Source: Halorarius litoreus (lineage in GTDB: Archaea; Halobacteriota; Halobacteria; Halobacteriales; Haloarculaceae). Taken from it: a stretch of 64,000 nt of DNA. The DNA lies in NCBI RefSeq assembly GCF_024362405.1, contig NZ_CP101454.1:1984001-2048000 (forward strand), read 5' to 3'. The notes beneath the pieces are model-generated. The model was not told where the DNA came from, made no database searches, and saw only the letters and a list, made by a program, of their open reading frames with translations. The position numbers and the translations under genes are program-made. Below are positions 41,069-41,549 of the stretch, piece after piece; within the stretch, counting starts at the first letter, position 1, and each line of letters opens with the position of its first letter.

Positions 41069-41162
41069 GACGTGTGGTTGGGCACGGGTGGGCAAAGCGG
41101 TTGGGAAATCGGCTAGGATGTTGTTTCTGACGTGGTTCCGTCCGGGATAGAACAGATGTAAC

Positions 41163-41463
41163 CACCTCGAAAGCCCCGACGTGCTGGGCTCGGTACGGCG
41201 ACTGCGCTCCTCGGGACTCACTCGCTGTCGCTCGCTCGCCACCTGCGGTGCTTGTTCGTCCGCGCCGTCGCCCACCGCGCCGCCCCTTTCAGTCCCGCCC
41301 ACAACGCTCGGCCGGCCAGTCGTCGCGGGTGGGACTGAAAGGGGTCGGCCTCTACGCGAACCCCGGCGATGTAAGCACCGCAGGGGCCACGCGAGCGGAC
41401 GCGAGCGTGGCCCGAGGAGCGCAGCGAGCCGCGGGAGCGTAGAGGCCGGGGGCTTTCGAGGTG
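41163..41463. repeat. 301-bp nested palindrome (fold-back element)
   Basis: Four inverted-repeat pairs are nested one within another: 41163-41177/41449-41463 (CACCTCGAAAGCCCC and its complement, 15 bp), 41204-41215/41411-41422 (GCGCTCCTCGGG, 12 bp), 41242-41253/41373-41384 (CCTGCGGTGCTT, 12 bp) and 41283-41296/41331-41344 (CCCCTTTCAGTCCC, 14 bp). Two further pairs, 41347-41357/41437-41447 and 41384-41392/41405-41413, could form competing local stems. It lies between divergently transcribed genes and has no ORF. It may be a MITE-like fold-back element or a structured RNA. Confidence 0.75.
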
Positions 41464-41549
41464 TTGTTCCCTAGTTTTCACTCCTCGCATCACATATCGT
41501 TCCTACCTAGAACCACAAAACGTACCACGCGGCACTCCTCTGAGGAGGT

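Follow-up and report, generated by a model that had tools for sequence, protein, structure and literature searches.

The question raised by this locus is what kind of sequence occupies positions 41163-41463 of the window (the whole stretch of 64,000 nucleotides from Halorarius litoreus that was analysed). The initial annotation had described a nested palindrome of 301 bp and had suggested a fold-back MITE, a structured RNA, or a site controlling the flanking genes, named there as those of a 2-TM protein and an arylsulfotransferase (both putative). As DNA, the segment folds beyond its dinucleotide shuffles (z −8.9, 0 of 100 shuffles as good), and as RNA the two strands reached z values of −10.2 and −13.2 against dinucleotide shuffles (0 of 100 as good in each case). 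Positions 41163-41177 and 41449-41463 form a perfect 15-bp inverted-repeat pair. Positions 41202-41253 and 41373-41424 form a 52-nt pair, which is 81% complementary with perfect runs inside, and the central pair, 41283-41313 and 41314-41344, is 81% complementary, too. The three-hairpin unit of this copy, from GAAAGCC to GGCTTTC, measures 289 bp.

The boundaries were determined by comparison with the sister genome G001, which lacks the element at this locus. The flanks are 43 bp apart there versus 437 bp in the window, and the homology ends at CTAG on either side (alignment read by eye). A second locus of the same H. litoreus genome, L006, also has a clean empty site in G001, likewise ending at CTAG. 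Thus, the inverted repeats reported initially are real and fold far beyond shuffled sequence, but the unit is 398 bp long, from CTAG to CTAG, and not 301 bp. CTAG is scarce in the window, with 22 occurrences observed and 190 expected from base composition. The check for a target-site duplication at the two empty sites revealed CTAG on both sides of the insertions, yet no CTAG in the empty sites. For two further copies of this genome (L002 and L013), no clean empty site was obtained in G001, because the flanks are 8.5-11 kb apart and inverted there; both copies are located at rearrangement points relative to G001, which may be chance. The inverted repeats start approximately 45-60 bp inward of the CTAG and not at the ends of the unit, and three hairpins lie between the two repeats. 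On either side, CTAG is thus followed inward by an outer arm (about 50 bp for the first one) and then by the 15-bp repeat (CACCTCGAAAGCCCC on the left). The parts of the window copy, none of which is assigned to a strand, are the following:

41113-41510: entire unit, CTAG to CTAG, 398 bp; homology to the G001 empty site ends at both CTAGs, and the same was found at L006
41113-41116: CTAG, left boundary, from the comparison with the G001 empty site
41117-41162: left outer arm, unpaired and triplet-phased, from the phase statistics of ends; its own left CTAG is in register
41163-41177: left terminal inverted repeat CACCTCGAAAGCCCC, 5' side of the closing stem, 100% complementary to 41449-41463
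41178-41282: side arm A with the boxes CTGCGCTCCTCG and CCTGCGGTGCTT, from pairing and from within-arm stems in 92 copies
41283-41344: central hairpin CCCCTTTCAGTCCC / GGGACTGAAAGGGG, from pairing; conserved across Halobacteria
41345-41448: side arm B, the inverse of the boxes of arm A, from pairing and from within-arm stems in 92 copies
41449-41463: right terminal inverted repeat GGGGCTTTCGAGGTG, 3' side of the closing stem, from pairing
41464-41506: right outer arm, triplet-phased, with an extra in-register CTAG at 41471-41474
41507-41510: CTAG, right boundary, from the comparison with the G001 empty site

The boundary CTAG coincides with an apparent TAG stop codon of the neighbouring gene in two cases from Haloarcula, on the right of L307 and on the left of L311.

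The window locus belongs to a family of non-coding DNA elements that is dispersed in haloarchaea and has apparently not been described before. In its own genome, 43 alignments at E 0.01 or better were assigned to about 20 places, of which 11 are strong matches (E below 1e-18). Among the other copies, the best full-length one is 77% identical, and strong partial copies reach 84%. Two own-genome loci (L021 and L024) represent a divergent subfamily with the core CCCTTCCAGTCCACCAGG in place of CCCTTTCAGTCCCACCC. Among related genomes, 36 of 58 matched at E 1e-5. An exact pattern of the central hairpin was found in at least 114 stretches, and 80 titles among the matches listed were all haloarchaea or Halobacteria-like archaea. 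With a slightly looser exact core pattern, 63 of 391 Halobacteria genomes matched, while the reversed control pattern yielded no match among the matches listed, and the exact-core copy number ranged from 0 to 27 within one genus. A phylum-wide draw gave 7 matches to the exact core in 294 genomes, all of them Halobacteria, and none in the 241 genomes of other classes; because the pattern is strict, a non-match means absence of the exact core only. Plasmid records with the element numbered 12 and 28 for two queries, nearly all matches being unannotated, and no match was detected in the phage records searched. The homologues sought in haloarchaeal genomes were therefore found and their pairing is conserved, so that the lack of conserved pairing between related copies, named initially as a reason to abandon the palindrome, did not occur. 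A full-text literature search, with most subscription papers outside its coverage, retrieved no description of the element. The parts covered of PMC3119063, which describe PATEs, MITEs, and SMRs of Haloquadratum, include no element built in this way, those of PMC2841640 contain no such repeat, and those of PMC12306157 deal with short REPs.

The genomic context was evaluated for 69 of the 96 copies with two ends, the rest being without a flank or a called neighbour. The neighbouring genes were divergent in 23, tandem in 37, and convergent in 9 cases, while 188 comparison gaps of at least 80 bp in the same loci comprised 56 divergent, 100 tandem, and 32 convergent ones. Because the orientations resemble those of other gaps of this length, a terminator or promoter device is unlikely as a general role, and the control of flanking genes proposed at the outset is not supported as a role of the family. 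That the element is a promoter or terminator device for its two flanking genes is extremely improbable. It does lie between two genes, at a median distance of about 100 bp or less over the copies, but the same element is found beside unrelated genes and the match in neighbour orientation argues against this role as well.

For the folding of the family, 134 cores from 207 loci were available, 96 of them with both ends. Stem pairing was calculated with the outermost 18 nt per arm, using 92 full copies of 215-370 bp without masked bases. The stems within the arms had mean energies of −27.3 and −26.5 kcal/mol, compared with −12.3 and −13.3 kcal/mol for pairing between the arms and −13.5 and −15.2 kcal/mol when the arms were shuffled between copies. 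Separate folding of the two side arms was more favourable than their joint folding in 69 of the 92 copies. The window copy is among the 23 exceptions (−131 kcal/mol with the arms paired together, −115 kcal/mol otherwise), since its two arms also pair well with each other. Because the stems pair within each arm in the 92 full copies, the predicted fold of the family is a closing stem with three hairpins (a cloverleaf) and not one nested hairpin; the label "nested palindrome" suits the window copy better than the family. The closing stem is anchored by GAAAGCC. Left and right bases agree at −4, −2, and −1 from this motif in 87%, 93%, and 92% of 91 copies (40%, 33%, and 48% in the shuffled control), a covariation which indicates that the stem is maintained by paired changes. 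The pairing ends at about −5.

Both orientations of the cloverleaf were encountered at single loci, in different species. At L307 in Haloarcula, it lies one way in G119 and G185 and the opposite way in G150, G095, G196, G026, and G236; the flanks and outer arms are unchanged across the inversion, and in G150 the switch falls within the inverted repeats. At L311, one orientation is shared by G185 and G150 and the opposite one by G006 and G141. Each of the two loci was searched in 32 genomes, and orientation was examined in a part of them: for L307, 15 genomes gave 16 rows (G150 twice), 8 oriented, 5 with no or a weak core, and 3 without a flank; for L311, 4 of 16 genomes were oriented, and in the other 12 the reference core was matched weakly or not at all. 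An invertible segment, that is, one locus with both orientations between fixed flanks, was hence observed at two Haloarcula loci. These genome comparisons show a CTAG-bounded, strand-symmetric unit, cloverleaf-capable by prediction, that is inverted in place at some sites and is present in some relatives but missing from others. Ordinary recombination at the 14-bp repeats could bring about the inversion, in which case no dedicated enzyme would be needed.

Whether the folding is maintained at the DNA or the RNA level was assessed from the mismatches in 121 copies (the 92 mentioned above plus another 29 of a second set). In the stems sampled, there were 5017 Watson-Crick pairs, 127 G-T, 106 A-C, and 131 other mismatches. 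The per-copy asymmetry between G-T and A-C was at the null (117 versus 120, sd 8.6, p 0.69), and a strand-specific wobble excess of G-U over A-C, as sought in these 121 copies, was absent. Since G-T and A-C are equally common, and a functional RNA strand should favour G-U, the constraint looks as if it acts on DNA. A multicopy element acting as a structured non-coding RNA or as an RNA regulator, in line with the second of the initial suggestions, would account for the very strong folding on both strands and for the compensatory stems. It is nevertheless quite improbable: the mismatches are symmetric without any per-copy asymmetry, the element is kept in both orientations at one site, and no Rfam family was matched at the gathering threshold, the only hits being chance matches to microRNAs far below it.

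The outer arms display a three-base register. Read inward to GAAAGCC, they are poor in C at −14, −17, −20, and onward to about −50; in 216 ends, C made up approximately 10% at every third position versus approximately 26% in the other two phases, and phase 0 had the fewest C in about 146 of the ends. The rhythm was shared by the ends of both sides and by the eight most frequent terminal types, was gone beyond −56, and also stopped outside the CTAG of the element. An independent set of 37 cores with 66 ends (three duplicates dropped) gave 10% C versus 32% and 27%. The CTAGs of the arms were in register in 56 of 66 cases in the first set and in 24 of 32 in the independent one; the combined 80 of 98 correspond to a p-value of about 1e-22 if the ends are independent, which they are not fully, because Haloarcula dominates several sets. 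In the own genome, 21 of 22 element CTAGs were in register, some of these ends overlapping the 216. CTAG is enriched near the element (66 in 79 near positions versus 20 in 310 far), but this alone is weaker evidence than apparent, since in a Haloferax the motif often precedes transcription starts (PMC11001535, in the parts covered). A general property of intergenic CTAG was rejected, as 58 control CTAGs distant from elements showed no rhythm.

A coding origin of the rhythm was rejected as well. In-frame stops occurred at about the random rate, the rhythm did not depend on whether the neighbouring gene points at the element or in the opposite direction, and it was kept in 60 ends with in-frame stops (C 8.8%). 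One orthologue pair, compared by eye, differed only at the two free positions of the triplet. The translated ends shared no common ORF start or frame. Pairing of the outer arms with each other was likewise rejected, since the left-right identity in phase 0 was 0.327 versus 0.312 when shuffled; phase 1 gave 0.262 versus 0.263, and phase 2 a small excess (0.300 versus 0.269, sd 0.012).

Extra tandem ends within 120 nt were spaced by 45 nt (four loci), 48, 51, 54, and 63 nt, so that 8 of 8 spacings are multiples of three; the four loci with 45 nt may share ancestry. Next to one intact element at L055:1480-1700, five tandem end units are spaced by exactly 45 nt. Recurrent words of the outer arms are TGTTCAGA, GAGTAG, TTGGA, and ACTGC (e.g., at L043, L047, and L048), ACTGC being in register in 30 of 40 cases. 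We tentatively suggest that a protein filament or stepping enzyme docked on the DNA cloverleaf might count triplets along the non-coding arm to the CTAG; arm length would then change only by threes, and every third base would be held as "not C". If true, such counting would represent a new class of DNA elements with a codon-like register in DNA that is unrelated to translation.

Among the three initial ideas, the fold-back MITE is the nearest. The element is short (398 bp), without a protein-coding gene (the outer arms are non-coding), dispersed, supplied with inverted repeats, variable in presence at its sites, absent in G001, and edged by CTAG. It departs from ordinary MITEs in its phased outer arms, its three-hairpin fold, and its inversion in place, and the inverted repeats lie 45-60 bp inside and not at the very ends. 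An ordinary MITE moved by a known haloarchaeal CTAG-targeting insertion sequence, with outer arms that are drifted internal sequence, would explain the inverted repeats, the CTAG at both edges of the two empty sites, and the dispersed non-coding copies, plasmids included; CTAG is also a known target of some IS elements (PMC6471742, in the parts covered). We consider this origin rather unlikely, because drift would not preserve a register with 10% C at every third place, the inner position of the repeats does not fit, and no parent transposon was seen in the collected loci. PATEs, according to the parts covered of PMC3119063, are similar in their near-terminal palindromes, heterogeneous outside sequence (20-50 bp), short conserved terminal oligonucleotide, and internal deletion forms, but by definition they have no terminal inverted repeats, and they are related to IS605-type ends. 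In contrast, the element is dyad-symmetric with inverted repeats, a perfect 15-bp pair in the window copy, and a central cloverleaf.

REPs are short single hairpins, with a palindrome of tens of bases in many copies. Parvovirus inverted terminal repeats (flip/flop) consist of a closing stem with side hairpins, and their inner part occurs in both orientations. Helitron termini have a CTAG-type end with a hairpin nearby. The element shares intergenic palindromes in many copies with REP, BIME, and REPIN sequences and their TnpA-REP (PMC8266576 and PMC3116915, in the parts covered), but with about 400 bp, three hairpins, CTAG ends, and phased arms, the window copy is not a single short palindrome. 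Unlike Helitrons (see PMC4067079 and PMC4778049), the element is archaeal, its two ends are alike, and no RepHel gene was seen. It resembles the parvovirus repeats in its architecture and in the two orientations of its inner part, but it is chromosomal, internal, and dispersed. In contrast to those repeats, we know of no replication protein for it.

With a probability of roughly one half, we prefer to read the family as a non-autonomous DNA element, found in Halobacteria, that functions in the form of folded DNA. In supercoiled or single-stranded DNA, the part enclosed by the inverted repeats would extrude as a cloverleaf, and a putative nuclease or recombinase supplied in trans would recognize the closing stem and could rejoin the cloverleaf in either direction. 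A protein with three-nucleotide steps, for which a RadA-like filament is one candidate and only a guess, may sit on each outer arm between stem and CTAG, and the CTAG would be the junction of the unit with the chromosome. Neither an autonomous relative nor a transposase gene was seen inside any copy. If this reading is correct, haloarchaeal chromosomes contain a common non-coding repeat that has so far escaped description and that combines a natural DNA cloverleaf inverting in place with a triplet register outside any reading frame. It would also supply a concrete context for CTAG. This motif is scarce, is methylated, and often lies ahead of transcription starts (PMC6471742 and PMC11001535, in the parts covered); haloarchaea avoid it even though a conserved orphan enzyme of theirs methylates it (PMC6471742, in the parts covered).

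Copies within one genome are about 70-84% identical, which points to no recent burst and leaves the present mobility of the element in doubt. With the best other own-genome copy only 77% identical over its full length, copies today probably persist, flip, and decay in place for the most part. Orthologous-site copies are conserved across Haloarcula species with repeated partial deletions. At L174, aligned in 15 genomes, full copies occur in two, without inversion between them, and many others are partial or missing. These orthologous copies, together with a structure kept while the sequence diverges and the low identity among the copies of one genome, are compatible with a chromosomal site for structure or recombination (a cruciform, nucleoid, or repair site) that was once mobile and became domesticated for the benefit of the host. 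Such a role is unlikely, since many complete genomes are without the core by the exact pattern and since copies at several loci are free to decay. Small hairpin modules come and go at the arm tips, often as two hairpins linked by TGATGA (L310 compared with L311; also L063, L036, and L315), and such modules are present in G150 at a site where G185 has none. In one copy (L080:5639-5963), the central hairpin is interrupted by another inverted-repeat insertion (TAGTGATTATTG ... CAATAATCACTA).
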